Notes under the pieces: model-generated
Database searches by the model: none
Seen by the model: the letters and a program-made list of their open reading frames with translations, nothing else
Told to the model about the DNA's origin: nothing
Assembly (NCBI GenBank): GCA_000996895.1
Contig: LCBB01000001.1
Span: forward strand, 66,542-103,805
Length of the DNA stretch: 37,264 nucleotides
Source: a candidate division WWE3 bacterium GW2011_GWC2_41_23
GTDB lineage: Bacteria; Patescibacteriota; WWE3; UBA101185; UBA10185
Direction: 5' to 3'
Translations under genes and position numbers: made by a program
In this document: positions 1,932-26,104 of the stretch, in pieces
Numbering within the stretch: position 1 is the stretch's first letter
Layout of the letters: each line of letters begins with the position of its first letter

Positions 1932-1941
1932 TTAAGGATTT

Positions 1942-2274
1942 TTATTTAGCATACTCCTTGTTCAACTTGAAAAGATAAGATAATTGCAGTATGCCATTCT
2001 CGATCTCATAATAGGTAGGTTGCTTTTCAAAAATGACATTGAATAACGATGTGTCTATTAGGTTTCCTTCCGTATCTATAAACAACTCGTGGAAGTGTTC
2101 CATAACATAATTTGTGTAAGCTTCTATTACCTGTATGCTCATCTCGTCCCCCTCCACTGTTTCCCGTTTCGTAACTAACTCAGTTTTTTCTTGTAATAGC
2201 CTTTCGGAGAGTTGCATAGCCTCAGAGTTAAAAAAAAGAGGCAAAAACTTTTGATTTTCGCCTCTACGGAACAA
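1942..2274 (-). CDS. Small hypothetical protein downstream of the Rho-like gene
   Basis: I do not recognise this 110-residue protein. It is mostly charged and helical, with no membrane segment. It starts with TTG at 2274, 11 nt after the stop of the Rho-like gene, and no convincing Shine-Dalgarno precedes it. An ATG at 2217 (MQLSERL) preceded by GAGG would give a 91-residue version and may be the real start. Close spacing and same strand suggest cotranscription with the Rho-like gene as the last gene of the cluster. No terminator is visible before tRNA-Glu. Confidence 0.5.
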   Translation of the reverse strand: MFRRGENQKFLPLFFNSEAMQLSERLLQEKTELVTKRETVEGDEMSIQVIEAYTNYVMEHFHELFIDTEGNLIDTSLFNVIFEKQPTYYEIENGILQLSYLFKLNKEYAK

Positions 2275-2285
2275 GTTAGTACTCT

Positions 2286-3599
2286 TTAATACGAAGGAAG
2301 CGGATGCTTTCGAACGTAATCTATAAGCCTGCCGTGAGCTATGTAAGAGCTCGTTCCGCCTTCTCTGTCTCTCATCGTTGCCCTTACAGCGGCCATTTCC
2401 TGTTTCTGTTTCTCAGATCTAAAATCGTGGCCGTTAGGATATCTTGTATTAGTCTCTGCTTCATTGACGGAAATCCAAGGTCTTTCCAAGGTTGGTATTT
2501 TTACCAGTCTGCAAATTGCCGTAGTGGAACTATCCGACGTTTCCTGGTCCACAGCCGATTCGGAGGTCTTTTTGGTGTCGGACGAAGAAAGAACAGTGCC
2601 GATAATCGTCAGCGACCTGTTTTCATCGAAGTAACCGTGTGTTCCGAATTGCAGGGCAATCATTTCCGTCAAACTACCCCGCTTTATGCCTCCGCTGATC
2701 ATTCCCCCATCACCGTCTGCATAAGAAGAAGCGGTATGAACTGCAACGGTGCGGCTCATTGAATCGAAAAGTACAATTACATTTCTGCCGATTGCCGTCA
2801 TTCTACGGGCCCGTCTCATAACAAAATTTGTAACGTCAACCTGTGCATCAGGAAGTGTGTTCCATGGAGCTTTATGAAAGGCGCCTTTCGCTCTCTTGTA
2901 CTTGTTAAATATTTCTATGTACAGGGCAGCATCCTCGGGACGGTCACCTACATATCCCATCAAGATATAAAGGTTATCCATCTCGAGAGAAAGAAGAAGG
3001 CACGCTTCCAAAATCTTGGCCAGTAACCAGGTTTTTCCTGCACCTCCCGGAGCGATAACCCAGTAGGCTGCACCTAATCCAATCGGGGCAAGCAACGTAA
3101 TCGCCCGTAAATCAGGATCGCCGAATTTTTCAACCGGCAATGGTTTTTTCGGATACTCGCTTTGAAACCCCGACAGATCGGTAGGCCAGGCTCTAAAAAC
3201 TTTGGGATCGCGCTCATTATTAACCGAGGAAATGTAAACAATTTTAGTGATATCGTCTTTTTCAATGTCAATCTGGTCACCTTCGGTTAATCTGTAGTAG
3301 GACGCAACCTCCTTCGGTACTTCCAAACCATACATACCCACACCGTCTTTCGAGTAGTGGATATTTTGAGTCGGCCTCACGCCCTTTTCGGTTAATATTC
3401 CCCAGTAATAAGTATCGTCTCCGCGCACCAAACCGTATTTTTTTGATCCGTCAAACAAATCGGCTCTACTGAAATTCAAATACTGATCCGTGCTGTACAC
3501 GATAATCGTCCTGGGGAACTTGGTATCTGATTTCTTTCCGACTTCGTACAATGGTTTTTCTGAGCTGGACAATTCTTCTTGCAGAATTAACCCAATCAT
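2286..3599 (-). CDS. Divergent Rho-family hexameric ATPase in a secretion cluster
   Basis: The C-terminal two thirds match transcription terminator Rho in order. LRAITLLAPIGLGAAYWVIAP leads into Walker A APGGAGKT (183-190). GDRPEDA (218-224) stands where Rho has DERPEEV. Walker B is VIVLFDS (274-280), then SGG (302-304), SLTIIGTVL (329-337) and a late TR (385-386). The R-loop of canonical Rho (DEVIYEEFKGTGN) is replaced by a Ser/Thr-rich stretch (338-360), so RNA gripping may differ. The first 120 residues do not clearly show the Rho cold-shock fold. At 437 residues it is about the size of Rho. It has its own leader of the cluster type (AATAA-loop hairpin) and SD-like AGAGAGG. Its position after VirB-like genes suggests a dedicated role rather than general termination, which is inference. 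A housekeeping Rho cannot be excluded. Confidence 0.75.
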   Translation of the reverse strand: MIGLILQEELSSSEKPLYEVGKKSDTKFPRTIIVYSTDQYLNFSRADLFDGSKKYGLVRGDDTYYWGILTEKGVRPTQNIHYSKDGVGMYGLEVPKEVASYYRLTEGDQIDIEKDDITKIVYISSVNNERDPKVFRAWPTDLSGFQSEYPKKPLPVEKFGDPDLRAITLLAPIGLGAAYWVIAPGGAGKTWLLAKILEACLLLSLEMDNLYILMGYVGDRPEDAALYIEIFNKYKRAKGAFHKAPWNTLPDAQVDVTNFVMRRARRMTAIGRNVIVLFDSMSRTVAVHTASSYADGDGGMISGGIKRGSLTEMIALQFGTHGYFDENRSLTIIGTVLSSSDTKKTSESAVDQETSDSSTTAICRLVKIPTLERPWISVNEAETNTRYPNGHDFRSEKQKQEMAAVRATMRDREGGTSSYIAHGRLIDYVRKHPLPSY

Positions 3600-3690
3600 T
3601 TTTCCTCTCTTTCTCCGTTAGTTTATTTTCCTTCCCTTATTAGGATAGGACCGAATGTAATCTCAATTTTTATTAAAGTCACATTCCGAC
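3600..3690 (-). promoter_or_regulatory. Cluster leader L1 (before the Rho-like gene)
   Basis: Reading the minus strand: hairpin 1 is built on GAATGT/ACATTC (3681-3686 with 3653-3658). Hairpin 2 is TCCT-AATAA-GGGA (3645 to 3633, closed by one G-U pair). Then comes AAACTAA (3624-3618) and the purine-rich ribosome site before the ATG at 3599. The order and the AATAA loop match leaders L2-L5. Confidence 0.6.
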
Positions 3691-3697
3691 CTGCCTT

Positions 3698-3743
3698 TTA
3701 AAAGAGAAGGAAAAGGATGAAAAAATGTGTTCCATCCTTTTCC
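3698..3743 (-). terminator. Terminator after the 405-residue membrane protein
   Basis: An 11-bp perfect stem GGAAAAGGATG/CATCCTTTTCC (3709-3719 with 3733-3743) lies 12 nt past the stop codon. On the minus strand it is followed by TTCTCTTTT. It separates this block from leader L1. Confidence 0.7.
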
Positions 3744-3755
3744 CACGTACGGAAT

Positions 3756-4973
3756 TTACAAAAGCCTGTCCTCATTGGGATCGGGAACTTCCGTAAAGTC
3801 GAAATCATTCTTGCGCCCTTTTTGTGAAAAGTAAGACGACACATCTTTGTCGCTTTCTTCCACTTCTTCTTCAGGTGCATTTTCTTCAACATAGTTACCG
3901 TCGTCATCGTAGATGCCGGGGTCCTCAACGCGGAAAATATCATAGGTCTCCACGGTAGCTCCCGCGTCCTTGAATTTCTCAAGAAACATCGTAGCTTCGC
4001 GTTCCTTTTTTCCACGTCTCCAGTTCTTTTCGTCGCGGTCTCCGACTTTTAGCCGCATAGCCTCTTCTTCGATATAGGACCGCTCCGACGCTTGTCTGGA
4101 AGCATTATCAATTAAACCGTTCAGGAGATTCTCTAACCCCGGGCCGTTGTCCACCCAAAATAGGACGTCCTCAGCCCTGTTAAAGATAGACCGTAGAAAT
4201 ATTGTTCTAAGGTTTTTCTTCTTCGCAAGCCAGGAGGTGTATTGATCCCTAACCCAAGATGTCTGAAACTTTTCATCAAAGTCCTGGGGATCAGCAGAAA
4301 TTTGTATCTCCTGAATTTGCTTGATCGGCGTCCTTGAAGCTTTAGGCAAAGTTCCCAAAGCGAACAACAGCGAAAGTACCGGAGTTCTTACTCTCACGTA
4401 GTAAGTCATGAAAGTGAAGACCACAAATTTCGTGTATCTCCGCCTCCACTCCTTTAGCCAATACGCCCATGGAATTACCAGGAAGTTGACTAATATTGTG
4501 AGCAAGAACAACCCGACAGCTACAGCGGGAAACCTGGAAAACTCTAACACGAGTATCGCGATTCCTCCCATAATTACGCTCACAAAAAACATACCGGGAA
4601 TTGTTTGAGTAATTAATTCCCAGACAACCGTAGCGTAAAAACTCGGGAGAACGACTCTTTCCAACCTTTCCCCATACACTACAGTGTATGTTTCCTTATC
4701 TTGTTTCGGTAAAAAACGGCTATCAAAAAAACCGAATACGGTTTTCTGAGCCGCCTTGGCAAACCAGAATGAAAAAACCTGGCTTAATACTGCCGCCGCT
4801 ACAATAAGAACTAAGTACAGTATTACGAGCTCAACGTTAGGTAAGTTTCCATCCTGAAGAAAGGATATTTCGACACCCAGCTGTTTTAAAGCATAGGCAC
4901 CGAGTCCGACACCAATGCATAAAACAAAAAGCATTAGCACCGTTGCCGGAAATATTTTACTTGACGAATCCAT
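3756..4973 (-). CDS. Multi-pass membrane protein of the secretion-like cluster
   Basis: This 405-residue protein has four predicted membrane segments (about 8-28, 47-67, 115-138 and 143-170). A basic turn (KEWRRRYTK) and a region that could be a small beta domain follow (about 175-230, with RTPIKQIQEIQI, weakly like a bacterial PH fold). The C-terminal half is soluble and charged, ending in a strongly acidic tail (about 345-405). I do not recognise the family. It is transcribed alone between leader L2 and a strong terminator, with Shine-Dalgarno AAAGGAGGAGAG directly before the ATG. Its place between the M23 enzyme and the Rho-like gene suggests a cluster-specific inner-membrane component, which is inference. 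Confidence 0.8.
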   Translation of the reverse strand: MDSSSKIFPATVLMLFVLCIGVGLGAYALKQLGVEISFLQDGNLPNVELVILYLVLIVAAAVLSQVFSFWFAKAAQKTVFGFFDSRFLPKQDKETYTVVYGERLERVVLPSFYATVVWELITQTIPGMFFVSVIMGGIAILVLEFSRFPAVAVGLFLLTILVNFLVIPWAYWLKEWRRRYTKFVVFTFMTYYVRVRTPVLSLLFALGTLPKASRTPIKQIQEIQISADPQDFDEKFQTSWVRDQYTSWLAKKKNLRTIFLRSIFNRAEDVLFWVDNGPGLENLLNGLIDNASRQASERSYIEEEAMRLKVGDRDEKNWRRGKKEREATMFLEKFKDAGATVETYDIFRVEDPGIYDDDGNYVEENAPEEEVEESDKDVSSYFSQKGRKNDFDFTEVPDPNEDRLL

Positions 4974-5070
4974 TCTCTCCTCCTTTTCTTAGGTTGATTT
5001 GTAACGCCTTTTATTAAGGCTGTCACGCCGGAAAAACTTCCAGTGAATGAAAATCTTTCCGGCGCGCGCC
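4974..5070 (-). promoter_or_regulatory. Cluster leader L2 (before the 405-residue membrane protein)
   Basis: On the minus strand hairpin 1 is CGCCGGAAA/TTTCCGGCG (9 bp, 5064-5056 with 5034-5026). Hairpin 2 is GCCTT-AATAA-AAGGC (5020-5006), a perfect 5-bp stem with the AATAA loop. AAATCAACCTAAG and AAAAGGAGG follow just before the start codon. Confidence 0.65.
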
Positions 5071-5212
5071 TTATATAAGCTGACGTGTTTATATTTTTAA
5101 AGTGCTTAAACAATCCGATTATAAAAATCGGACTGAAACATCAACACTCAAATTTATATTTAAGTGCTAATGCTTGAACACAACAAGAAAGTTTTTTTTG
5201 TTGAGTGGAAAC
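5071..5212. other. Non-coding gap with hairpins and one CACAACAAGAAAG copy
   Basis: This AT-rich gap holds no gene. It contains a 7-bp hairpin TCCGATT/AATCGGA near 5113-5133, two GCACTT-type tracts (minus strand, near 5103 and 5164), and the recurring element CACAACAAGAAAG on the plus strand at 5179-5191, which forms a CAACAA/TTGTTG hairpin with the following T-tract. Confidence 0.5.
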
Positions 5213-5253
5213 GGGGCGAGTGAGAGAGAAAAAATTCTCACATCAATCGCCCC
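5213..5253 (-). terminator. Stem-loop over the stop codon of the M23 gene
   Basis: GGGGCGA plus GTGAGA (5213-5225) pair with TCTCAC and TCGCCCC (5236-5241 and 5247-5253), with a 5-base bulge. The fold includes the stop codon at 5243-5245. There is no U-tract after it, so it may be a processing or Rho-type boundary rather than a classic intrinsic terminator. Confidence 0.5.
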
Positions 5254-6631
5254 CTAAGTAACCTGTCGGATTCACCCATTTGCCATTAATTTTCATAGCA
5301 AGATGCAGGTGAATTCCTGTAGAAAAGCCGGTTGATCCGGACATCATAAGCAACTGACCTGCTTCTACTACATCTCCTTCCGTAACTTTCATACTTCCGT
5401 GCGCTCCGTGCCCATATGCTGTCCAGATAGAATTTCCTTCGTTGTCCTCGCCTTCAATCGCTATGACATTTCCGGAAATCCACCACTGGCCGGCAAGTGT
5501 TTCACTGGGCGAAAGATACCTTGAAAATGTAATTGTACCTGAATGCATAGCATAAACAGGAGCGGATCCCCAGGGTGTGCCTCGACACATATCAATACCC
5601 CAGTGAATACCGTTAGCCACGGGCGCCCCATACCCATATCCGCATATAAAGCTTCCCGGGTAGGGATTCGTGAAACTACCGACTACTGACGGTTTTTCTC
5701 CTGGCGGAAAATCAAAACCAGCTGCAAATACTTCGCCTTCAAGCAATCCTGTCGCTTTCAAAACTTTAATCGCTTGACTGCGCCACCACCCTCCTTTGAA
5801 CACATAAATATTTTGAGGAACGGGGTCGTATTCCCAGCCTGCAGCAACACTATTGAATGTTTCGGCTCTACTTACAAGCTGATTACGGTATTCGATGCTG
5901 TGGTTCCAACCATACAGGGAGTCGAACTTCTCATCCTTTGTTTTCCCCGACTTATAACCAATAGCTTTAAGCCACCAGTTTTTTCCGTACGGGGCGACTC
6001 GTTTGTCAAAAAAGTTACAGGATTTGACTAAGTCGTCAGGATGCGCTGAAATCCCGTCCCTGCATATCTTGACCCCGGTCGACGGTAGTATACCGTTGGG
6101 TCCTATTTCTCCGGCCGAACAATGCGCTGTATAGTCGCTATAGTCCGGCCGGATCATTTCTTTGGCAATTTCTGACCAATCCCTTACTTTGTGTTCTTTC
6201 CAGTAGTTTAAAAGCCACATGGCAGAAACAACTTCTTGATGGGATAGTTTGGCTGCAGAAGCGATTCCGCTACAAGAACCTAAATTTGTACCTCCTTTGG
6301 ACTCGCCCTCCAAAATTGCCAGCTGGATACCTAAATCGATCTCCCCGCCATTTTCGTTGATCCACTTGTTTGCCATAATTTCATCGGCAACAACCGACGG
6401 ATCAAAGCCTAGTGAGAGTATATTCTCTTCGGCATCAGCGGGGAGTGAGTACCACGTTCCCCCGGACAGACCCAAGGCTTCTTTGATGTAATCGTTGTAG
6501 GCCTTGGGGTCTGTATCATGGATAATTCCGAGCGTTAAGAACATCGACGCAAAAAGCGCGAGAATTAACAACGGAATTCCGGGGAAAATAGAAAATGCTA
6601 GGAGCGAGCGGAAGAAGTTTCTTGTGTCCAT
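5243..6631 (-). CDS. VirB1-like bifunctional lytic transglycosylase and M23 endopeptidase
   Basis: This 462-residue cell-wall enzyme should open peptidoglycan for the secretion apparatus. Residues 10-36 are one membrane segment, placing the rest outside. Residues about 75-260 look lysozyme-like: LAILEGES (105-111) offers the catalytic Glu, and GEIGPNGILPSTG (174-186) matches the GAMGPxQFIPSTW motif of MltB-type transglycosylases. Residues about 305-462 are an M23/LytM domain with HWGID (H343, D347), YGH (406-408) and HLH (441-443) as zinc and catalytic residues. The two-domain layout is typical of conjugation or type IV secretion wall hydrolases. The start lies inside the end of the VirB4-like gene (34-nt overlap), so translation is probably coupled. 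Confidence 0.85.
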   Translation of the reverse strand: MDTRNFFRSLLAFSIFPGIPLLILALFASMFLTLGIIHDTDPKAYNDYIKEALGLSGGTWYSLPADAEENILSLGFDPSVVADEIMANKWINENGGEIDLGIQLAILEGESKGGTNLGSCSGIASAAKLSHQEVVSAMWLLNYWKEHKVRDWSEIAKEMIRPDYSDYTAHCSAGEIGPNGILPSTGVKICRDGISAHPDDLVKSCNFFDKRVAPYGKNWWLKAIGYKSGKTKDEKFDSLYGWNHSIEYRNQLVSRAETFNSVAAGWEYDPVPQNIYVFKGGWWRSQAIKVLKATGLLEGEVFAAGFDFPPGEKPSVVGSFTNPYPGSFICGYGYGAPVANGIHWGIDMCRGTPWGSAPVYAMHSGTITFSRYLSPSETLAGQWWISGNVIAIEGEDNEGNSIWTAYGHGAHGSMKVTEGDVVEAGQLLMMSGSTGFSTGIHLHLAMKINGKWVNPTGYLGGD

Positions 6632-8544
6632 CCGTCTGCTCCTTGCTCGGGTTCTTGTCTGCCCACGAGTTTCAGAATGGAGTTTGGTAATGTTACTTTT
6701 AGTTCGGGTACGTACGGCGCACTGTTTTCCGACAGTTTTGCTATAGAGTATTGGTTATGTTCAAACTCCATTACCAAACCAAAATCTTTGATAAACCCGG
6801 GTTTAATGTATTCCAGGTCGGTGTTGTTCTGGGTTAGAATGCGTGTCATCACACCGCCATTTCTACCGTTGTTCACAAGTGATACCAACTGTAACCCAAG
6901 AGCCCGACCGGTTGCAGAAGGAATGTATCCCAAATTCGGATCGTCAGTTCCTTTTTGTACCGCGCCGAAATTGTCAGCAACCAACATTATCGTATTTCCA
7001 GTCTTCTTGAACCATTCAGTCCAATACTGTTGAAACACTGTTAGATACTGAAAATAGAAATTCAACAGGCGCACTGTATTCCCTGACTCAATTTCAAATG
7101 TCAGGGGCAATCCATCAATCTTTTTCTTATCTTCCCACCTTGAGAACTGATCCCGAACGATTTGGGTAGCTAGATCAATATCAGCAGTGTGCATTTCTTG
7201 CTGCTTTGCCATCCAAACTTTGGTCCTATCAGGCGCTTCAACATTAGGCATTACTGTGTAAGCGTCGGGTAGGTTCAAGGGCAAAACCGTCCCTCCAAAA
7301 TTCTTGCAGATTTTTGGAACCGCTTCGAACTGCGTAGCAGAAAGTGGAAGCCAAATGACGTTCTGCGTCACTTCAAACACTTCCTGCAGAGCTTTCGTGG
7401 TTTTACCTGTTTTGCTGGATCCAATATAAGCTACAGATGGCCGGACACGGTTGTCCAAAAAAACTACCTGTCCTTTGTTAAAACCGGCTACATAATTTCC
7501 GTTCCGGTCGCCAAACGACTTAAGTGAATCCGTAAATTTGGGTAGCACTTCAACAAGGTTGGATACGGAGTGCAGACACCATCGAGGTGGAGGAGAACTT
7601 CCCGGAATAAATGCCAGGAAAGCTGAACGAACATCACTGCCCGTTCTTAATTCCCATTTTCCCTTTTGCTTTGAAATTATTTTCGCCACATTAGAGAAAT
7701 CCGGTGGTTTTCCGTTTACATCCACTTCCGCTCTAAGAACCGCTGTCATGAACAAAACTGCGTCGCGATCGTTCACTGCAACTTTTTCAGCATGAACAAG
7801 CAAATCACCAAGTTCAATTATCTGGTATATATCGTCCGCTGTAATTACCCCTGCCCAAAAAGCATAAGCCTTTTTGTTGTGTGGCATTTCGTAGTACGTG
7901 TCATGCCATACTATGGACGAAGGAGCCGCGTACCATACAGGGTCCACGGAACCAGAAAGCAAATCCGCCGGTGTTTCCGACATGTCCATAACATTGCCGT
8001 CTATAACAGAACGGATCACATTCCCTAGCTGGCGGTATTTTACAATCTCACCGTCAAGGGCAATAGTGGGTTCGTGCTCTACCGGAATTACAACTTCTGC
8101 CGGTCCCCAAATAAGTACGTCGTGGCCGGTTAGTACCTGATTTTTACGCGGTAGCGCCCATTCCTGAACACTTGTCAAAAATTGGGTGCGGGCCTCGTTT
8201 GACACGGACTTTTCCCGTTCAATGTGATTCAGATACGCTCCCGGATCGCCACGAACAGCTCGTTCCAGAAACATAAAATCATCAGCATACTCTAAGGCTT
8301 CACGTAATTTAACAGGCACGCCGTTGTATAAACTCGGAGACTTGTGGTAAGCAATAGCTCTACTTATCGTGTCTTTGTAAATGCTTTTAACGATGGCTTC
8401 CTTATGGTCTCCGGGTCTAGCTTTAATGCCCAAAAGGTTCCTGGCTGAAGATTTTTCCAGCATAGTTTCCGTTGGGATCTTACGGATAATTTCTGGCAAC
8501 AGTTTCCGTTCTACTTTCGGAAGTTTAGGTCTTTTCTTGAACAT
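6598..8544 (-). CDS. VirB4/TraC-like secretion ATPase
   Basis: This 648-residue protein has the plan of VirB4-type ATPases. The N-terminal half lacks recognisable motifs. A RecA-like motor follows, with Walker A GSSKTGKTT (375-383), a Walker B-like TIMLVADNF (518-526) and ILTQNN (569-574) in the position of the VirB4 Gln motif. The residue after the Walker B Asp is Asn, not Glu, and the DExx signature is degenerate, so activity may be reduced. No membrane segment is present, as expected for a cytosolic motor. It follows leader L3 with GAAAAGGAG before the ATG and overlaps the wall hydrolase gene. The neighbours (VirB2-, VirB6-, VirB3-like) support the assignment; the sequence alone would also allow a TraG/HerA-like ATPase. 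Confidence 0.7.
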   Translation of the reverse strand: MFKKRPKLPKVERKLLPEIIRKIPTETMLEKSSARNLLGIKARPGDHKEAIVKSIYKDTISRAIAYHKSPSLYNGVPVKLREALEYADDFMFLERAVRGDPGAYLNHIEREKSVSNEARTQFLTSVQEWALPRKNQVLTGHDVLIWGPAEVVIPVEHEPTIALDGEIVKYRQLGNVIRSVIDGNVMDMSETPADLLSGSVDPVWYAAPSSIVWHDTYYEMPHNKKAYAFWAGVITADDIYQIIELGDLLVHAEKVAVNDRDAVLFMTAVLRAEVDVNGKPPDFSNVAKIISKQKGKWELRTGSDVRSAFLAFIPGSSPPPRWCLHSVSNLVEVLPKFTDSLKSFGDRNGNYVAGFNKGQVVFLDNRVRPSVAYIGSSKTGKTTKALQEVFEVTQNVIWLPLSATQFEAVPKICKNFGGTVLPLNLPDAYTVMPNVEAPDRTKVWMAKQQEMHTADIDLATQIVRDQFSRWEDKKKIDGLPLTFEIESGNTVRLLNFYFQYLTVFQQYWTEWFKKTGNTIMLVADNFGAVQKGTDDPNLGYIPSATGRALGLQLVSLVNNGRNGGVMTRILTQNNTDLEYIKPGFIKDFGLVMEFEHNQYSIAKLSENSAPYVPELKVTLPNSILKLVGRQEPEQGADGWTQETSSARS

Positions 8545-8640
8545 CGTTCTCTCCTTTTCTATAGGTGTGTTTGATTAGGTTTCATGCCTTTATTGGCGTG
8601 AGCACCGGAAAGACGTCTCAACTTAAACATCTTACCGGTA
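8545..8640 (-). promoter_or_regulatory. Cluster leader L3 (before the VirB4-like gene)
   Basis: On the minus strand hairpin 1 is closed by ACCGG/CCGGT (8639-8635 with 8608-8604) and extended inside by AAGA/TCTT. Hairpin 2 is CACGCC-AATAAA-GGCATG (8600-8583, one G-U pair). AAACCTAATCAAA and AAAAGGAG follow before the start codon at 8544. Confidence 0.65.
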
Positions 8641-8826
8641 CCCGCGCTTTGGCAAAAACCTTCTAATGTCCTCAAAAACTTTCTTATTGTGTTTGTCAAA
8701 GTGCTTTTCTTGCACAGTATGCAAGAAAAACCGGACATACTCTCTGCCCTTTTCAAACGTCTGCAATCACAGCCGCTTAAAAAGAGCCACAACAAGAAAG
8801 AGACGTGGCTATAATTTTGGTAAAAC
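8641..8826. other. Structured non-coding gap with an inverted pair of CACAACAAGAAAG elements
   Basis: No gene is seen here. The gap holds one element copy on the plus strand (8788-8800, in the loop of an AGCCAC/GTGGCT hairpin), a near-copy on the minus strand (8691-8679, CACAATAAGAAAG), and between them a perfect 10-bp hairpin TTTTCTTGCA/TGCAAGAAAA (8705-8729) with a 5-nt loop. GCACTTTGACAAA follows on the minus strand. Confidence 0.55.
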
Positions 8827-8864
8827 ATGAGAGGATAGAGACGGGATTTACCCTATCCTCTCAT
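8821..8864 (-). terminator. Terminator after the VirB3/PrgI-like gene
   Basis: A perfect 12-bp stem ATGAGAGGATAG/CTATCCTCTCAT (8827-8838 with 8853-8864) begins about 10 nt after the stop codon and is followed on the minus strand by GTTTTA. It ends the VirB2-VirB6-VirB3 block. Confidence 0.7.
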
Positions 8865-8873
8865 TTGTTGCGT

Positions 8874-9182
8874 TTACTTGTAGTAAGTTCTGTCTGACAA
8901 TTCCGTAACCGTGACCTCTTTCACATGCTTTTGGCTTGGTTTTACGTAGTCGCGGCGGTATGTGTGGTTTGCCCATAGTTTCTTAGCTAAAAGAAACAAA
9001 AGGAAACACGCTAACAAAATCGCGAAAACGAGGGCCAGGGGTTTCCAGAAAACATACAGAAGTAGCGATACTAACAAGTATGCTGTAAATGCAAGAACAA
9101 CCGAACTGTCTCCACGTGATTTATCAGGGAAAATATATTTCCACTTATTTAACTCAGTAGAGACATTGAAAGTTGTTTTCAA
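8874..9182 (-). CDS. VirB3/PrgI-like small membrane protein
   Basis: This 102-residue protein has two adjacent membrane segments (about 28-46 and 49-66) flanked by basic residues and a charged C-terminal tail. Size, topology and position between the VirB6-like and VirB4-like genes fit VirB3/PrgI proteins, which dock the VirB4 ATPase at the membrane. Similarity at the residue level is not strong enough to prove it. The start is TTG, overlapping the upstream stop as TTGA (9179-9182), with GGGAGG eight bases upstream, so it is translationally coupled to the VirB6-like gene. Confidence 0.6.
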   Translation of the reverse strand: MKTTFNVSTELNKWKYIFPDKSRGDSSVVLAFTAYLLVSLLLYVFWKPLALVFAILLACFLLFLLAKKLWANHTYRRDYVKPSQKHVKEVTVTELSDRTYYK

Positions 9183-10651
9183 GATTTTCCTCCCTTCTTA
9201 CCGACCAAACGTAAAAGATCCGCGGGGTCTACATCGGGAAACAAAGTTTCTGCAGCTCTTTCGGCTACACCTTGCGCCTTGCTAAGTAGAACCTCTTTAG
9301 GATCGGCGTCGGAGTTTGATATCTCTTCGGCCACGTTGCTGACAAATTTAGCAGCTTTGCCACCAACAACTAATTTGGGTTCGTGTGTAACTGCACCCGC
9401 AAGTGTAAGCACATCTCCAGCCTTCTTGAGAAGCTTAAGACGGTTGCTTTCCTTAACTGATTGGGGGTGTTTTTCATCCTCGGGCGCCAGGCTGTCGTTT
9501 TCCGTTTTCCTTGAACTAGCTTTACCGGAAAATCGGATTGTATTTGCATCTATGGTTTCGGGATTGTCATGTATTTCTGAAATCTCGGGCATTGATGCAT
9601 GACTTAAATCGTCATTTTCCCTGTGCTCTGAATTAGTAATATGTATTACATCATCTTGATTGAGCACAGCATCTTCCAATAAACCACTCGGAAGGTAATA
9701 AACCGGGGAAGGACTGTCCGGCCCTTTGGGACCATTAGGTCTTCCCGTGCTACCATAAAAACCATCGTCTCCGGATCCGGACACATCGATTTCTCCTTCT
9801 TCGTATGTGTCTTCTTTGTGCCGAATGAGAACCGGAAGTGCCATCAGATATTCCCAATCTATCTTTTTGTTCCTTGCTGCTGCCACTTTCTCACGTGACG
9901 GAGAAGGAACTAATGACGCAGCCAACCAAGGCAAACCTATGTAGCAAGCTAAAACCAAAAACAATGTGCCGGCCGTATAGAATGCGCTGGTAAAAACTGC
10001 GACAAACGACATATCCCAGGTCGGGTAATAAGTTCCTATCAATGTAACAAAAGTGTCATACATTGCGAGAAACAAACCCCACCCCAAGATTTGGGATGCA
10101 ACGAAGACCACTCCCTTGAAACTACTTGAAGCAATCGAGGTTGCTACTGCAATTATCGCTGCTACAAGCATTACTATTTCCCAAAATGCACTTATCAACG
10201 GAAGCATAAGAGTAAAACTAACGCCCCAGGCAACCGTAGATAATTCGAGCGGATCTGAAGACAGTTTCCAGTGAAGGGCACCAAACACCTTATCCAAACT
10301 CAGGTCTGAAGGCATGATACTTTGACCAAAGATCGTAGCAATGGGTATGTATATCAGCAACAGACCGGCAGTAATAAGAAGTGTAACACCCGTCAGTACA
10401 ACACCACCAAATATAGGTTGCCCTGCTTCCCAATTGGAAAGAAGTCCCCAAAGGGTAACAAGAACGGCTGACGCAGCCAAAAGCCCTATTATGGGTCCGA
10501 TCTGCGTCTCTAAAACAGGAGCGTCAACATGGAGAAAAAACTTTTCTCTCCAGTCGAACAGCTGCTCCATGTTAGTTGGAACGTCGCATCCGGTCAGCAG
10601 CAGGCTGCTCACCAGTGCGATGAGCGATACTCCTGCACGCCTGGCAGTCAT
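9179..10651 (-). CDS. VirB6/TrbL-like polytopic membrane lipoprotein
   Basis: This 490-residue protein has an N-terminal lipoprotein signal with lipobox LLTGC (C22). About five membrane segments follow (52-70, 80-105, 141-170, 178-200 and 214-245). A long soluble C-terminus is rich in Gly, Ser, Asp and Pro (about 285-400) and ends in a helical tail (DLLRLVGKKGGKS). Topology and position fit the channel component VirB6/TrbL of type IV secretion systems. A lipobox on a VirB6-like protein is not usual and would tether its N-terminus outside in a one-membrane cell. It starts one base after the VirB2-like stop and overlaps the next gene by 4 nt, so the three genes form one tight operon. Confidence 0.65.
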   Translation of the reverse strand: MTARRAGVSLIALVSSLLLTGCDVPTNMEQLFDWREKFFLHVDAPVLETQIGPIIGLLAASAVLVTLWGLLSNWEAGQPIFGGVVLTGVTLLITAGLLLIYIPIATIFGQSIMPSDLSLDKVFGALHWKLSSDPLELSTVAWGVSFTLMLPLISAFWEIVMLVAAIIAVATSIASSSFKGVVFVASQILGWGLFLAMYDTFVTLIGTYYPTWDMSFVAVFTSAFYTAGTLFLVLACYIGLPWLAASLVPSPSREKVAAARNKKIDWEYLMALPVLIRHKEDTYEEGEIDVSGSGDDGFYGSTGRPNGPKGPDSPSPVYYLPSGLLEDAVLNQDDVIHITNSEHRENDDLSHASMPEISEIHDNPETIDANTIRFSGKASSRKTENDSLAPEDEKHPQSVKESNRLKLLKKAGDVLTLAGAVTHEPKLVVGGKAAKFVSNVAEEISNSDADPKEVLLSKAQGVAERAAETLFPDVDPADLLRLVGKKGGKS

Positions 10652-10652
10652 G

Positions 10653-10913
10653 TTAACCGCCCAGGGGTTCTGTCAGAATGGTCGTGATCCAACTACCGAC
10701 CGTGGTGATGATAATTCTGTCGCCCTTAAAATCGGTCGCAGCCCATATAACGAGACCTGCCCCGACCAATACTCCAGCGATCGACAGAAGTACCGGGCCG
10801 ATTTCAGCATCGCCTTTCAAAACCTTGATAAGCTTGACCATGCCGAAGATAACCAGGAAAGCTGCAAACACCAGGACGCCCAAGTATACTAAGTTATCAA
10901 CGAATGTGTTCAT
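10653..10913 (-). CDS. VirB2-like two-helix membrane protein (pilin candidate)
   Basis: This 86-residue protein has two membrane helices (about 9-31 and 41-60) separated by a short polar loop (KGDAEIGP), then an amphipathic C-terminus. This is the plan of mature VirB2/TrbC pilins, though the long cleavable signal of the Gram-negative pilins is missing. It is the first gene of the VirB2-VirB6-VirB3 operon, with Shine-Dalgarno CGGAGG before the ATG. The leader L4 lies about 75 nt further upstream, with a small overlapping ORF between. Function is inferred from order and topology. Confidence 0.55.
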   Translation of the reverse strand: MNTFVDNLVYLGVLVFAAFLVIFGMVKLIKVLKGDAEIGPVLLSIAGVLVGAGLVIWAATDFKGDRIIITTVGSWITTILTEPLGG

Positions 10914-10986
10914 TTCTATCCTCCGATTCTTTTGAGTTGGGTGCGTTAGTCGAAAAAACTGTAGTGCAAGGAATACCTTCCTTCAA
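10897..10986 (-). CDS. Possible 29-residue leader ORF overlapping the VirB2-like start
   Basis: The strong AAAGGAG of leader L4 is not next to the VirB2-like ATG. Instead, 7 nt after it a TTG opens a 29-codon frame (MKEGIPCTTVFSTNAPNSKE...) that ends 17 nt inside the VirB2-like gene. It has no recognisable family. It could be a leader peptide that couples or gates translation of the operon, or the remains of a gene once attached to L4. A chance ORF is possible. Confidence 0.3.
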   Translation of the reverse strand: MKEGIPCTTVFSTNAPNSKESEDRNEHIR

Positions 10987-11070
10987 TGCTTTTCTCCTTT
11001 CGCTTAGTTTGTGTGCTCCTTATTGAGCAGGCACCTCCGGGCGCTCTATAACATAAAAAGCCCGAAGGTA
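10987..11070 (-). promoter_or_regulatory. Cluster leader L4 (before the VirB2-VirB6-VirB3 operon)
   Basis: On the minus strand hairpin 1 is a 10-bp stem ACCTTCGGGC/GCCCGGAGGT with one G-U pair (11069-11060 with 11042-11033). Hairpin 2 is TGCTC-AATAAG-GAGCA (11029-11014). AAACTAA (11010-11004) and AAAGGAG follow. Of the five leaders this has the clearest match to all parts of the pattern. Confidence 0.65.
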
Positions 11071-11161
11071 CCGCTCAAAGAAACACGTATCTCTTTCTTG
11101 TTGTGTTTTTAAAGTGCCGCAGGATCAAATAATATTCCCGTTACCAAGATAAAATGGAATG
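11071..11161. other. Non-coding gap with a minus-strand CACAACAAGAAAG element
   Basis: No gene is seen. On the minus strand, GCACTTTAAAAA runs into the element CACAACAAGAAAG (11105-11093). An AAACAC/GTGTTT helix encloses it. The same element occurs on the plus strand at 5179 and 8788. Confidence 0.5.
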
Positions 11162-11189
11162 GAGAGAGCTCTCCGAAAAAAGCTCTCTC
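11162..11189 (-). terminator. Stem-loop after the DUF1232-like gene
   Basis: A 9-bp stem GAGAGAGCT/AGCTCTCTC (11162-11170 with 11181-11189) starts 6 nt past the stop. A clean U-tract is missing (CATTCCATTTT follows), as at 5213. Confidence 0.5.
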
Positions 11190-11195
11190 GCAAAT

Positions 11196-11546
11196 CTATT
11201 CGACGTCGTGCCAATCACCATCAATCGTGTTATCACCTTTACCTTTTTTACCATGAAGCTCCTCCTCAGAAATGCGTTTTCTCAATTCGCTCACAACATT
11301 CCTGGGTGAAAGTTCGATGAAAAGGTAACTGCTGATGAAGATAGCAAGTGCGTCGTCTACAGGTCCGGGTGCGATATCGGGAAAGATAAGCCATAAAAGC
11401 CCAAAAACCGGTAGAAGCTTGAGTATAAACGGAACACGCTTGTCTCCCATTAATCTCATAACTAACCGGAAATTCTGGCTCAGGTCTTCGAAAATACCCG
11501 ATCTTTTTACCGGATTTTTCCCCTTATATCCTTGATCCTCGCCCAT
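11196..11546 (-). CDS. DUF1232-like small membrane protein, first gene of the cluster
   Basis: This 116-residue protein has two hydrophobic stretches (about 40-56 and 63-78) with the pattern GDKRVPFILKLLP...WLIFPDIAPGPVDDALAIFI. It resembles the DUF1232 (YkvA-like) family, in which a Pro/Asp-rich turn links two helices (family role unknown). The ends are charged and soluble. It has a strong Shine-Dalgarno AAGGAGG 4 nt before the ATG and lies after leader L5. It is first in the direction of transcription of the secretion-like cluster and shares the cluster leader, so it is probably part of the same system. Confidence 0.6.
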   Translation of the reverse strand: MGEDQGYKGKNPVKRSGIFEDLSQNFRLVMRLMGDKRVPFILKLLPVFGLLWLIFPDIAPGPVDDALAIFISSYLFIELSPRNVVSELRKRISEEELHGKKGKGDNTIDGDWHDVE

Positions 11547-11640
11547 ACTTCCTCCTTTTTCTCGTGCATTTAGTTAGTTTGAGCTCTTTATTTGAGCCGA
11601 AGCCCCGAATAGTTTTGTGTGTACAAGACCATACGGCGAT
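11547..11640 (-). promoter_or_regulatory. Cluster leader L5 (before the DUF1232-like gene)
   Basis: On the minus strand hairpin 1 pairs CCGTATGGT with ACTATTCGG (11636-11628 with 11613-11605, one mismatch and one G-U). Hairpin 2 is GCTC-AAATAAA-GAGC (11597-11583). AAACTAA (11580-11574) and AAAAAGGAGG follow before the ATG at 11546. Confidence 0.6.
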
Positions 11641-11659
11641 GCGGCTTAAAATTAAGGAT

Positions 11660-11680
11660 GTCTATAATCTATAAATAGAC
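11660..11680. promoter_or_regulatory. Inverted repeat upstream of leader L5
   Basis: A 21-bp inverted repeat has arms GTCTAT and ATAGAC around ATAATCTAT-type sequence, just upstream of leader L5. It could bind a dimeric regulator or overlap a second, nearer promoter. Confidence 0.3.
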
Positions 11681-11877
11681 CTATAACTATTGTATTAAAC
11701 TAGTACTTTCTCTCCGTAAAATAGAATTTTTAATTAACATTGAAATGTGTTATTTACCTGCGCGCTTGGCTCAGCATCGATATTATGTAAACTAACCTAG
11801 TTTTTGCCATACCCTCTCTTTTTCACTACTAAACTATGGGTTATTATTGATATAACGCCATATCCTATAATTGTGTA

Positions 11878-11906
11878 TATTTAACACCACAGATTTTTTT
11901 TGTCAA
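11878..11906 (-). promoter_or_regulatory. Likely main promoter of the secretion-like cluster
   Basis: On the minus strand TTGACA (11906-11901), a 17-bp spacer and TAAATA (11883-11878) give a near-consensus promoter. The transcript would begin near 11871 and carry about 325 nt before the first start codon at 11546. Apart from the inverted repeat at 11660 and leader L5, the 11641-11877 stretch is AT-rich and I see no gene in it. Confidence 0.5.
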
Positions 11907-11937
11907 TAAAGGAAAAACCTACCGTTATGAATCTGTT

Positions 11938-12513
11938 TTACGCTATCGGAAACGGCTGCGTGTTTGTTCCGACTAAAGGCAAAAGTAGCGTTATCACAAA
12001 ATAAACAATAAATGTAATGAGCACGATCTTTAACAAAATTAACGCAATTATTCCCCAAACCGGACTGCCCACCCTAATTACCCTAGTGCTCAAGAACCTA
12101 TCGTGCCAGGTCAGATCTTCCTTTTTTCTAAACGCCCAAAGATAACCTAATCCGAAAAAGCTGGAGGATAGCGCATATCCTGCGGTCATTCTCCAAAACG
12201 CGGTCGTCTTGTCCATATATGAGCCATTTTCGTCCACTATTCTCAGCCTGAATAATAGTTTACCGATTGTCCCTCCAAATTTATGTGTAAAATACCAGGA
12301 ATAGAAAAACATCAGGATAGGGATCAAAAATAAAATGGAAAAGGGCAGGACGACGGACAGCGCACTCCATGTTGAAGGAGATGCAAAATATCCTTTCACC
12401 GCATTAAACGTTACGAGAAGAAACGGAATCAATACAACCAGCATACTTATTAAACAATCCAACGCGTAAGCAAAATATCTTCTTACGATTCCTGCCGTTT
12501 TATATTTGTCCAT
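11938..12513 (-). CDS. RDD-family membrane protein
   Basis: This 191-residue protein belongs to the RDD family, whose members are small polytopic membrane proteins, some linked to ion or solute transport. The N-terminal GIVRRYFAYALDCLI segment carries the family Arg and Asp, and GGTIGKLLFRLRIVDENG with a later LTWHDRFLSTRVI completes the family pattern. Four membrane helices are visible. I chose ATG 12513 because GGAGG lies 6 nt upstream; a longer frame to 12555 lacks such a site. The start lies inside the end of the preceding membrane-protein gene (14-nt overlap), so the two are coupled. Confidence 0.8.
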   Translation of the reverse strand: MDKYKTAGIVRRYFAYALDCLISMLVVLIPFLLVTFNAVKGYFASPSTWSALSVVLPFSILFLIPILMFFYSWYFTHKFGGTIGKLLFRLRIVDENGSYMDKTTAFWRMTAGYALSSSFFGLGYLWAFRKKEDLTWHDRFLSTRVIRVGSPVWGIIALILLKIVLITFIVYFVITLLLPLVGTNTQPFPIA

Positions 12514-13609
12514 TTGATTCCTCCGGTTTGTACATAAATGCCACTGGATCCACATCAGGCTTTATTTCAAAAGATTCTTTGGTGAATAAGAAAAGATGGG
12601 TCCAGGAAAAACCGGACACGGTACGAACGTAAGGAGTAGAAACCAAAATAGTAGCTAATCCGATTACGCCTGCCAGAAATCCGATCAAACCAATTATAAA
12701 AAATGAAGCTTCCTGGTTTACTAAAAACGCCGTGATACCTCCCAGCAATAAGGTGGGTAGAAAAACAATGAGCGTGAAAATCGGCAAAACAAACATTAAC
12801 GCAAAAAATAGTTTTAAACTCTTTCCTGGTCTTGTTTTGTAGTACTTCCACCCAAGATTAAATGTTGCTTTCGTAGGTACGTTATCGGCAATAATGCTCC
12901 TAAGTGCGAACTCGCCGACAAAGTACAATCGGATATTATAGATAAGAACCCAAACTAACGCTATTAACCCGGCTACCCCCAAAATACCTATTAAAACGGA
13001 GCCTAATCGCCAAACTACTACGGTAGCAAAACCTCCGCCGATTATTAAAAAAGGAATTAACGATAACAATCTTTTATATATAAAGTAGATTGCCAGCTTT
13101 AAGTACCTTTTCCAGTTTCCTTTACCCGCATTACCAAGGTCTTTGAAATCATAAGCTTCCGAATTACACGCCTTTAAAAGACCTGAGTAAAGTCCGCCGC
13201 TTGCCCAAACACTTGTTAAGAAGGAAACTATTGACCAGAAAATAATTACCAATAGAGCTAGCATAAAAATAGTCACGGCAGCACTGTTAAAATTCTTTGG
13301 AAGTAAACTTGAAACAGAAGGCATCGCTTCCACTCTCTCTTGTGCTATACCCAAAACCTTATTCACATTATTGTCAGTAACGACATTCTCGGGCGACAAA
13401 TTATATTTTCCTTCGAGGGAAGGTAATTTGTTAGCTGGGTTGGTTTCAATTTGAGGCGTTTCTTTCTGAGAGCTTTTTTCGATACCACTGCTTACGTTCG
13501 AAGCATTAAAACTAAAACCTCCGCCCACCAACATCACCAAAATCCAAAGCATCTTATGCTTCCACGCAAGCTTAAACGACTCCCTAATGTTCGAGAATGT
13601 TGAATACAT
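12500..13609 (-). CDS. Polytopic membrane protein of unknown function
   Basis: This 369-residue protein has about six membrane segments (roughly 18-38, 108-132, 160-180, 188-222, 262-292 and 298-325). After the first there is an extracytoplasmic loop of about 70 residues rich in Ser, Asn and Glu. It is similar in plan to the DUF7544/glycerophosphodiesterase-membrane-domain type of proteins, but I cannot assign it. The open frame extends upstream to 14005 across hisS; I chose ATG 13609 (MYSTFSNIRESFKLAW) because the extension lies antisense to hisS and looks unlike a protein. No Shine-Dalgarno is seen. It is followed by the RDD gene with overlap. Confidence 0.75.
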   Translation of the reverse strand: MYSTFSNIRESFKLAWKHKMLWILVMLVGGGFSFNASNVSSGIEKSSQKETPQIETNPANKLPSLEGKYNLSPENVVTDNNVNKVLGIAQERVEAMPSVSSLLPKNFNSAAVTIFMLALLVIIFWSIVSFLTSVWASGGLYSGLLKACNSEAYDFKDLGNAGKGNWKRYLKLAIYFIYKRLLSLIPFLIIGGGFATVVVWRLGSVLIGILGVAGLIALVWVLIYNIRLYFVGEFALRSIIADNVPTKATFNLGWKYYKTRPGKSLKLFFALMFVLPIFTLIVFLPTLLLGGITAFLVNQEASFFIIGLIGFLAGVIGLATILVSTPYVRTVSGFSWTHLFLFTKESFEIKPDVDPVAFMYKPEESNGQI

Positions 13610-13679
13610 AAGTAAATTGTAGATACGCTTAAAAATAAATACAAGGACCAAACGACTTCCTACCCCGCCCCACCTATTG

Positions 13680-13685
13680 TAGAAT
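13680..13685 (+). promoter_or_regulatory. -10 box of hisS (leaderless start)
   Basis: TAGAAT ends 9 nt before the hisS ATG and no Shine-Dalgarno is present. The -35 region is poor. The transcript should start at or within a few bases of the start codon. Confidence 0.45.
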
Positions 13686-13694
13686 AAACACAGT

Positions 13695-15017
13695 ATGTCT
13701 GATAAAGGCAAAATAACACCTTCAATACTGCCCGGCTTTATGGAACTCCTGCCCGGAGAGCAGGTAGCTTTCAACGGGATGCTCGACTCCATAAAGGAAA
13801 GTTTCGAATTGTGCGGCTTTTTGCCGTTAGATACCCCTGTGATTGAAAAAGCTGAGATTCTTAAGGCAAAAGGCGGGGAAGAAACAGAAAGACAACTGTA
13901 TGCGTTCAAAAAAGGCGAAAACGAACTGGCACTAAGGTTTGACCTGACGGTTCCATTCGCAAGATACGTCAGCCAGCGCATGAACGACCTAACCTTTCCT
14001 TTCAAAAGATATCAAATCGGGAAAGTGTTCCGCGGAGAAAGACCCCAAAAAGGAAGGTTCAGGGAATTTTATCAGTGCGACATAGATATAGTTGATAAGG
14101 ACAATTTAAGTTTAGCCTACGACGCCGAAATACTTTCAACCACCTACACAACTTTTGAACGCCTAAACATCGGTGGTTTCTTAATTAAAATAAATAACCG
14201 CAAATTATTAACAGGATTTATTGAGAGTTTAGGACTCAATGAGAAATTAAGTAAAATTCTACGGAACATCGATAAAAAAGATAAAACCGGTGATGAGAGT
14301 GTAAAACAAGAATTGAGTAATATGGGCTGTTCTTCCGCGCAAGTAGAAAAATTAATAAAATTTATAAATACTGACGGAACTCCTAAGGAAATAATAAAAA
14401 GCTTGGCGGCCCTAAACATTGGAAATGAAAACTTTCAAACCGGCCTTGAAGAAATGCAAGAGATAGTAAAGTATTTAGGATACATGAATATCCCGGTTTC
14501 TTGTTGGAAAATCGACCTTTCTATAGCACGCGGCCTTGATTATTACACCGGTACCGTCTTTGAAACTATATTGAAGGATTACCCCGAATTCGGCACTATT
14601 TGCGGAGGGGGCAGGTACGATAACCTTACAGAATATTTTACTAGCCAAAAACTTCCGGGTGTCGGTGTATCAATCGGGCTCACGCGCTTGTTCGACCAAC
14701 TTAGCGAAAGGGGGTTAATAAAAATTGACGGAAGTGCTATCTTACGCGTCGCCGTTTTACCTTTGGGTGAGTATATGGAATTAGCTTACGGACTTGTTGC
14801 TAATCTCAGAAAAAATAATGTTTCTGCGGAGGTACTACTCTTGGGGGACGGGCTTAAGAAAAAATTAAGTATAGTAAATAAACGCGGAATAAAATTTGCA
14901 GCTATTATAGGCGAAAACGAAATAAAAAATAAGGTTATAACAATTAAAGACATGGAAAGTGGAGAACAGGAAGAAGTTAATATCGAAAATGTCGTTGATT
15001 ATATTAAGAAAGCATGA
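13695..15017 (+). CDS. hisS: Histidyl-tRNA synthetase
   Basis: This 440-residue class II synthetase charges tRNA-His. Motif 1 lies in the first 60 residues. Motif 2 is FRGERPQKGRFREFYQCD (about 112-129). The His-specific motif is ARGLDYYTGTVFE (about 277-289), and motif 3 is GVSIGLTRLF. A C-terminal anticodon-binding domain covers about 350-440. Length is normal for bacteria. It is transcribed away from the membrane-protein pair and ends 45 nt before the deoxyribosyltransferase-like gene. Confidence 0.97.
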   Translation: MSDKGKITPSILPGFMELLPGEQVAFNGMLDSIKESFELCGFLPLDTPVIEKAEILKAKGGEETERQLYAFKKGENELALRFDLTVPFARYVSQRMNDLTFPFKRYQIGKVFRGERPQKGRFREFYQCDIDIVDKDNLSLAYDAEILSTTYTTFERLNIGGFLIKINNRKLLTGFIESLGLNEKLSKILRNIDKKDKTGDESVKQELSNMGCSSAQVEKLIKFINTDGTPKEIIKSLAALNIGNENFQTGLEEMQEIVKYLGYMNIPVSCWKIDLSIARGLDYYTGTVFETILKDYPEFGTICGGGRYDNLTEYFTSQKLPGVGVSIGLTRLFDQLSERGLIKIDGSAILRVAVLPLGEYMELAYGLVANLRKNNVSAEVLLLGDGLKKKLSIVNKRGIKFAAIIGENEIKNKVITIKDMESGEQEEVNIENVVDYIKKA

Positions 15018-15062
15018 TTTCCCGGCGAGAAACACAACGCAAAAAGTGTTAGTATATAAAAT

Positions 15063-15464
15063 ATGCGCATTTATATAGGTTATAAATACACGAACGTCGA
15101 AGATAAAAAAGCACTAATTCAGAAACTTTTAGAGTTTGCGGGTTACCTGGAAAAGGCTGGCCATAAAACCTTTATGTTGGGCAGAGATATCCAAAATTGG
15201 CAGGGATCCCTACCTCTTTGGAAAACTTTTCCTGCAATTATCGGGAATATGCTCAAAAGTGACGCGTTTGTTGCCTACGTAACCAGTCCGGTTTCCAGCA
15301 AGGGGCTGGAGGTAGAAAAGACTTTGTCCGGTGTTTTGGGAAAGAAAAGGGTGTTCGTGTTAGATACCGCCGCTCCGATTGAAAACGGTGATGCCGCGAC
15401 CGACATAAACGTGGAAGCCACTATTGAAGACACGGCAAATGTAGTATTGGCGAAGCTAAAATAA
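15063..15464 (+). CDS. Nucleoside 2-deoxyribosyltransferase-like protein
   Basis: This 133-residue protein has the small Rossmann-like plan of the nucleoside 2-deoxyribosyltransferase family. MRIYIGYKYT forms the first strand. A helix with a Lys/Glu-rich face follows, then SDAFVAYVTSPVSSKGLEVEKTLS (about 67-90), where the Glu in GLEVE sits where the family has its catalytic Glu. LGKKRVFVLD is the next strand. Substrate is unknown. The ATG follows a TATATA box by a few bases, so the mRNA is probably leaderless. Another nucleotide-binding fold is possible. Confidence 0.5.
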   Translation: MRIYIGYKYTNVEDKKALIQKLLEFAGYLEKAGHKTFMLGRDIQNWQGSLPLWKTFPAIIGNMLKSDAFVAYVTSPVSSKGLEVEKTLSGVLGKKRVFVLDTAAPIENGDAATDINVEATIEDTANVVLAKLK

Positions 15465-15531
15465 TAATTTATTGTAACAACCCGATTATTCCAATATACT
15501 AGGCAGTTGTGTATAATGTTGTAGTTTTTGA

Positions 15532-15603
15532 GGGGGCGTAGCTCAGCGGTAGAGCAGCGGCCTTTTAAGCCGCGTGTCCTGGGTTCGATCCCCAGCGCCC
15601 TTA
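15532..15603 (+). tRNA. tRNA-Lys (anticodon TTT)
   Basis: Acceptor GGGGGCG pairs with CGCCCTT (two G-U pairs at the end). The anticodon stem GCGGC/GCCGC encloses CTTTTAA, giving anticodon TTT (Lys). The T-arm is CTGGGTTCGATCCCCAG. CCA is not encoded, unlike tRNA-His and tRNA-Glu in this window. A TATAAT at 15512-15517 lies 14 nt upstream. Confidence 0.95.
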
Positions 15604-26069: not shown

Positions 26070-26098
26070 TTGACAAATAAACAGGGGACGTGTATAAT
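26070..26098 (+). promoter_or_regulatory. Perfect consensus promoter of the DUF1874-like gene
   Basis: TTGACA (26070-26075), a 17-bp spacer and TATAAT (26093-26098) form an exact consensus. CCTATAGT (26061-26068) lies one base upstream. GTTCTTTGAAAA (26105-26116) at the expected start site resembles a boxA antitermination element of rRNA leaders. Confidence 0.85.
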
Positions 26099-26104
26099 AT
26101 TATC

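Follow-up and report, generated by a model that had tools for sequence, protein, structure and literature searches.

Structured leaders shared by the blocks of one gene cluster in a candidate division WWE3 bacterium, with boxB-boxA-like elements upstream of most of them

Introduction

Antitermination through boxA is textbook knowledge for rRNA operons and lambdoid phages, and is known for a few protein genes. In the rrn operons of E. coli the elements come in the order boxB-boxA-boxC, and boxA is sufficient for recruitment of the complex (PMC10250234); boxA leaders also control some protein genes, suhB and others (PMC5725501). Here we describe a secretion-like gene cluster on the minus strand of the candidate division WWE3 bacterium GW2011_GWC2_41_23, an organism with a tiny genome of 837 kb, in a stretch of 37,264 nucleotides from contig LCBB01000001.1 (hereafter the window, numbered from its first letter). 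The blocks of the cluster follow one another in the order g5, the block behind leader 4 (g4), g3 with an M23 peptidase gene, g2 and g1. An initial annotation, made from the DNA letters alone, had pointed to five gaps on the minus strand with a long hairpin, a small hairpin, an AAACTAA-like tract and a Shine-Dalgarno sequence (SD), in that order, and all five are present as described. A shared RNA element is confirmed; the control signal is likely to be a pair of elements upstream of it, a boxB-like hairpin and a boxA-like motif (GCACTTTRAMAA).

The shared leaders

The leaders have one layout, which consists of the long hairpin (H1), a small hairpin with an A-rich loop (H2), an A/C-rich, G-poor linker and a strong SD that closes every leader. 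The tract AAACTAA is exact in three of them (g1, g4 and g5), as had been claimed.

3600..3695, minus strand: leader g1; H1 at ~3648-3695, H2 (TCCT-AATAA-GGGA) at 3633-3645, AAACTAA linker, SD; orthologues L011 and L013
4974..5075, minus strand: leader g2; strand x (AAGGC) at ~5068-5071, H1 at ~5025-5067, H2 (GCCTT-AATAA-AAGGC) at 5006-5020, linker, SD
8545..8655, minus strand: leader g3; strand x at 8644-8648, H1 at 8600-8643, H2 (GCC-AATAAA-GGC) at 8586-8597, linker, SD
10987..11090, minus strand: leader g4; H1 at 11030-11072, H2 (TGCTC-AATAAG-GAGCA) at 11014-11029, AAACTAA linker, SD
11547..11655, minus strand: leader g5, the cluster head; weak H1 at ~11599-11648, H2 (GGCTC-AAATAAA-GAGCT) at 11582-11598, AAACTAA, SD; no boxA

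The five leaders are real and not a product of chance. Hairpins with an AATAA loop and a stem of at least 4 bp lie upstream in four of the five, against 5 of 329 control open reading frames (ORFs) drawn from 380 kb of the window's genome, and g3 misses this count on stem length alone, as its H2 has merely 3 bp plus flanking pairs. Folding against dinucleotide shuffles gave z scores of -6.7 (g2), -5.1 (g3), -6.9 (g4), -2.8 (g1) and -0.9 (g5); the long hairpin of g5 is therefore unremarkable by energy alone. None of 4227 Rfam models matched between 3500 and 12000, either at the gathering threshold or at E<=1.

Orthologous leaders with identical layout precede the same genes in two congeneric candidate division WWE3 bacteria, RAAC2_WWE3_1 (G001) and RIFOXYD1_FULL_43_17 (G003); the genome of the window itself is G000. 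A covariance model (R1) was built from six g2 and g3 leaders, in the alignment of which 98.1% of the pair cells are paired, compared with 41-53% when the alignment is slid, and in which changes on both sides of the stem occur in H1 and none in H2. The search of genome and relatives that the initial annotation had proposed was made over 557 kb, of which ~380 kb belong to the window's own genome but not to the cluster, and recovered leaders at the same genes in relatives. Independent matches were a leader in G071, from another family (E=1.5e-4), window g5 (0.0025) and G003 g4 (0.023); further matches, all of them cluster leaders, were G001 g1 and g4, G003 g1 and G022 g2, with background from ~0.6. 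The match list also contains reverse-complement matches to the leaders' own hairpins. Outside the cluster, no match went below E=0.94 when the whole own genome was searched, or below 0.63 in the 557 kb, in keeping with the earlier statement that no copy exists elsewhere. The copies in relatives and the covariation in H1 bear out a conserved, cluster-specific RNA element common to all blocks.

The claims made for H2 held in part. Compensatory change around a constant loop is seen between paralogous leaders only, because among orthologues the stems do not vary (GCC/GGC is invariant in g2 and g3), and the AATAA loop is constant within one genus but A/T-rich outside it (AAATTA, AATT and others in another genus).

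The gaps before g2 and g3 in G071 (locus L016, ~7150-7500 and ~10740-11160) have nearly identical intergenic sequence, which suggests, as a reading of the sequence, a recent conversion between leaders of one cluster. If the leaders were altogether duplicated intergenic sequence, spread by gene conversion between gaps and having no RNA function, their hairpins would be terminators and repeats; the recognisable homology of the g2 and g3 leaders and the near identity of these G071 gaps would fit. Yet sequence has turned over while pairing was retained, the arrangement is conserved across genera and families, and the leaders are found nowhere else in the genome, which together make such an origin very improbable.

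The upstream boxA-like and boxB-like elements

The initial annotation expected one control signal to tie all blocks together. All blocks share an element, but the best candidate for the signal is the boxA-like motif, which lies beyond the segments it had delimited and in three of the four non-head blocks. There (g2, g3 and g4; window positions 5105, 8704 and 11117) GCACTTTRAMAA stands 25-40 nt upstream of H1, and it recurs in the orthologous gaps and in G071. Since GCACTTTRAMAA resembles the boxA of rRNA operons, the 16S leaders of relatives were inspected. Sites were taken by their CTTTRA core, which was our own choice, and read GCACTTTGAAAA in G071, GTACTTTGATAAC in G001 and (T)GNTCTTTRAMAA in others; those of G001 and G071 have a hairpin just upstream. 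A position weight matrix (PWM) was built from nine 16S-leader boxA sites of Patescibacterial relatives. In g2, g3 and g4 of G000, G001 and G003 its best site in the entire gap is the GCACTTTR element (0.001-0.05 expected per gap, in one case 0.19), and it also finds sites in three gaps of G024 (0.097, 0.027 and <0.001) and in G001 g1 (0.007). A regular expression for boxA matches three times in the 1.4 kb of gaps where 0.011 would be expected, an enrichment of ~270-fold.

5090..5105, minus strand: boxA-like element of g2, GCACTTTAAAAATATA; PWM score 15.8, 0.001 expected in the gap; also enriched by regular expression
5111..5135, minus strand: boxB-like hairpin of g2, CAGTCCGAT..ATCGGATTG, 5 nt 5' of boxA; p=0.005
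8689..8704, minus strand: boxA-like element of g3, GCACTTTGACAAACAC; PWM score 14.0, 0.007 expected
8705..8729, minus strand: boxB-like hairpin of g3, TTTTCTTGCA/TGCAAGAAAA, adjoining boxA; p=0.035
11102..11117, minus strand: boxA-like element of g4, GCACTTTAAAAACACA; PWM score 10.7, 0.046 expected

In all nine copies within the genus a hairpin ends 0-5 nt 5' of boxA, and the stems are unlike one another but pair (Fisher 8e-8). The g2 stem has another sequence in G001 and G003, yet is still paired; the equivalents of the g3 stem are GTCTCTG/CAGAGAC in G001 and TTTTCTGCA/TGCAGAAAA in G003. A DNA pattern search of 380 genomes of the phylum found GCACTTTRAMAA with its extension convincingly at this cluster alone. 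Matches with 2-3 mismatches in G107 and G201 have no cluster protein nearby, and one in G380, within coding sequence, was set aside as chance. NusB is encoded, above cut-off, in all five genomes checked.

The locus thus shares with rRNA antitermination (boxB-boxA-boxC; NusA, NusB, NusE, NusG and SuhB) a boxA sequence that matches the rRNA boxA of its lineage, a hairpin just 5' of it, a position at the start of transcription blocks, and an encoded NusB. It differs in that the elements precede protein genes, are repeated within one cluster and are followed by H1, H2 and SD; boxC was not identified in the cluster, and boxA is not in every block. Like suhB and the other boxA-controlled protein genes (PMC5725501), the cluster has boxA in the 5' untranslated region (UTR) of protein genes; there, however, boxA stands 6 nt from the SD and represses, whereas here it stands 130-165 nt upstream with large hairpins between. 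The lambda nut site also has boxA followed by a small pentaloop hairpin, and H2 of g2 is of boxB-like size, but in the cluster H2 lies ~80 nt away from boxA, beyond a long hairpin, and no N-like protein was found. The loop of lambda boxB is of the GAAAA type, from which AATAA differs. A lambda-type nut site was accordingly rejected: the loop, AATAA in the genus, is not GNRA-like, and no phage-type N protein was found among the cluster genes.

A further repeat touches these gaps. CTTTCTTGTTGTG follows the preceding genes, and beside boxA stands CACAACAAGAAAG, which is its reverse complement, or a close variant of it, in G071 too; the pair is possibly boxC-like or engaged in long-range pairing.

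5180-5205, 8780-8795, 8680-8692 and 11092-11104: copies of CTTTCTTGTTGTG/CACAACAAGAAAG

An invertible promoter formed by the inverted copies around the g3 gap was considered and dropped, as copies are lacking in the g2 or g4 gaps.

Two boxA-like sites were observed away from the cluster. On the plus strand at 26070-26120 a TTGACA-N17-TATAAT promoter is followed at once by GTTCTTTGAAAA and hairpins, upstream of an ORF (26249-26593) without a family match. In the same genome, a boxA-like site with a hairpin lies near the start of a gene for a 632-aa secreted-looking protein (L073, 3980).

The bistable small hairpin

H2 had been described as a short hairpin. It can form, but its 5' arm (s) pairs equally well or better upstream of H1, which makes H2 one of the two states of a bistable fold. 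Across five genomes, 17 leaders allow s to pair with the 3' arm (s') or, alternatively, with strand x immediately upstream of H1; these folds differ by 0.5-8 kcal/mol, and x:s is favoured in all except G003 g2. The triplets x/s/s' co-vary (AAGGC/GCCTT/AGGC, GGCG/CGCC/GGC, GAGC/GCTC/GAGC), and in another genus they read TTTGGC/GCCAAA/GGCA and GGGGTT/AACCCC/CGGG. Shuffle tests gave Fisher P values of 0.0024 (s:s') and 7e-5 (x:s) in the window, and of 4.5e-5 and 1.9e-4 in the other genomes. An automated call of bistability was positive for four of the five window leaders and for 17 of 324 controls.

Neither fold pairs the SD, and H2 is not followed by a U tract. Because the SD is free and no terminator follows, the leaders are not classic attenuators, and an intrinsic-attenuator riboswitch was ruled out, as neither fold gives a terminator or a hidden SD. 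Sequestration of the SD by the 5' arm of H2 was rejected for want of consistent complementarity. Leader-peptide attenuation was rejected because an eight-codon ORF exists in g3 only (MKPNQTHL in the window; short in G003 also; not in G001).

The AATAA loop, or the H1/H2 switch, could instead be bound by a protein or small RNA through which translation of all blocks is controlled jointly. Such a binder would account for a loop that stays constant within the genus while the stems change and for bistability kept with different sequences in two genera, and H2 is placed 25-50 nt from the start codon. Beyond the genus, however, the loop is not conserved; neither fold occupies the SD, and there is neither a match to a known RNA family nor an identified candidate binder; we regard joint control through H2 as improbable.

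Antitermination or promoters

Transcription of boxA, its binding, antitermination and all roles of H1 and H2 are what we infer from the observed motifs, positions, structures, conservation and specificity. We give about an even chance to the proposal that rRNA-type Nus antitermination elements, fused to structured hairpin 5' UTRs, keep RNA polymerase processive through the cluster. Most blocks would open with a boxB-like hairpin and boxA (GCACTTTRAMAA), and the structured 5' UTR, with H1, H2, an unstructured A/C-rich linker and the strong SD, would begin 25-40 nt downstream of boxA. Once transcribed, boxA would be bound by NusB and ribosomal protein S10, which would load the Nus complex on RNA polymerase; polymerase so equipped would pass both the weak hairpin terminators and the Rho-sensitive stretches that lie between blocks, up to the strong terminator at the end. 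H1 may protect or process the 5' end of the mRNA of each block, while H2 and the linker may serve as a ribosome standby site. Since the 5' arm of H2 also pairs with the strand before H1, two leader forms of nearly equal energy would leave the purine-rich 3' arm of H2 either exposed or buried.

2237..2265, minus strand: strong terminator with a U run, at the cluster end
3708..3744, minus strand: terminator-like hairpin after g2, immediately 5' of the g1 leader; its U tract is imperfect
11162..11189, minus strand: terminator-like hairpin after g5, without a U run

Hairpins at block ends within the cluster lack good U tracts, while a strong terminator stands behind the last gene, an arrangement consistent with read-through from block to block. 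The hairpin equivalent to 3708..3744 adjoins a boxA-like site in G001 and G024.

Several observations weigh against antitermination. The head block g5 has no boxA, and that of window g1 is degenerate (PWM score 3.2); the boxB-like hairpin of window g4 is weak (p=0.065), and the g2 and g3 sites of G024 have no significant hairpin upstream. Two of the nine PWM sites come from G001 and G071, both carriers of the cluster, and the PWM does not always rank the boxA site first in the cluster gaps of G071. The G000 assembly is without a 16S gene, so that its own rRNA boxA is not comparable; the regular-expression motif occurs in only ~9 of 25 oriented rRNA leaders, and no boxA word stood out clearly when k-mers were counted in rRNA leaders. 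The conserved 3' extension ACACARCAAGAAAG lies outside boxA and is not explained by it, there is no direct link of H1 or H2 to Nus factors, and the boundaries of x, s and s' were chosen by eye.

GCACTTTRA could also be a -35 region (TTTAAA/TTGACA) and not act as RNA at all. As a cluster-specific promoter or operator it would give each block its own promoter, with H1 and H2 as 5' stabiliser and standby site and without antitermination. The element indeed stands 25-40 nt 5' of H1 in three blocks and contains TTTAAA/TTGACA; with it as the -35, strand x would lie near the transcript 5' end, the leader would resemble highly expressed mRNAs with 5' stem-loops, and strong SDs with A-rich linkers favour high translation. 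On the other hand, suitably spaced -10 hexamers are of poor quality and lack conservation, the gaps yielded no sigma-70-like site in a promoter scan that did no better than shuffles, and leaders without the element exist (g1 and g5). The rRNA boxA matrix, moreover, selects the element, and a promoter has no need of the abutting hairpin. A promoter is thus possible, though we think it doubtful.

Genes, setting and distribution of the cluster

2286..3599, minus strand: g1, Rho/F1-type hexameric ATPase, a Rho paralogue
3756..4973, minus strand: g2, 405-aa membrane protein without a family match
5243..6631, minus strand: M23 peptidase gene without a leader, overlapping g3
6598..8544, minus strand: g3, 648-aa P-loop ATPase, VirB4-like by context only
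8874..10913, minus strand: block g4, membrane proteins of 102 aa, 490 aa (polytopic) and 86 aa
11196..11546, minus strand: g5, 116-aa protein, the cluster head gene
11674..11712, minus strand: cluster-head segment kept in G001 and G003 (TTTAATA..TAGTTATAGGTCTATT), aligned by eye; from its sequence a probable promoter/operator

The SD of leader g4 precedes a TTG at 10986, whereas the 86-aa gene starts at 10913; the TTG opens a 29-codon ORF (window 10900-10986), and an open TTG frame exists there in G001 and G003 too. Identity in G001 and G003 is 84% for the M23 peptidase, against 46-66% for its neighbours.

Searches with profiles of the type IV secretion system (T4SS), for homologues of VirB4, VirB6 and PrgI, gave a P-loop match only and one sub-threshold conjugal match (TIGR03750); phage-family matches among the cluster genes were confined to the M23 peptidase domain. 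As in the Patescibacterial T4SS (PMC12102498), membrane proteins, a P-loop ATPase and a wall hydrolase are clustered, but no protein passed a T4SS family cut-off, the cluster has a Rho-like ATPase and no recognised VirB11, and it is rare. Like LoaP/dfn (PMC12691694), it is a long gene cluster that has a leader hairpin and contains internal terminators; that system has a UNCG hairpin and a NusG paralogue, and no search aimed at either was made here.

Gene order is retained in G001, G003, G025, G024 and G022 and is looser in other families (G071, G094, G050). The cluster occurs in 8 of 380 genomes of the phylum and 6 of 45 of the class. Its site (window 1932-13649) is variable: in the congeneric G002, from which the cluster is absent, the flanks equivalent to 91-1931 (with tRNA-Glu) and 13650-15601 lie 1.77 kb apart, with a radical-SAM-like gene between. 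No tRNA-derived repeat was found, and no relative was present among viral contigs.

The ATPase g1 aligned to Rho across Walker A, the RPE(E/D) segment, Walker B and the GG loop region, and a separate, true Rho is encoded in the same genome; an AlphaFold model of g1 was unusable (pLDDT 44). Because boxA complexes counter Rho, a link of g1 to a boxA/Rho balance is conceivable, and a role as secretion ATPase is equally likely. A bolder and rather unlikely proposal is that of a secretion-like island with its own elongation control, in which rRNA-type boxB-boxA sites ahead of most blocks and a bistable leader absent from Rfam, possibly opposed by the Rho paralogue, would let one balance of Nus and Rho switch the whole machine.

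Regulation in this phylum is almost unstudied. If antitermination is what the upstream pairs bring about, repeated rRNA-type elements would extend boxA antitermination to a protein machine of several blocks, and the arrangement boxB-boxA-H1-H2 would offer a testable RNA family and a marker for similarly controlled clusters.

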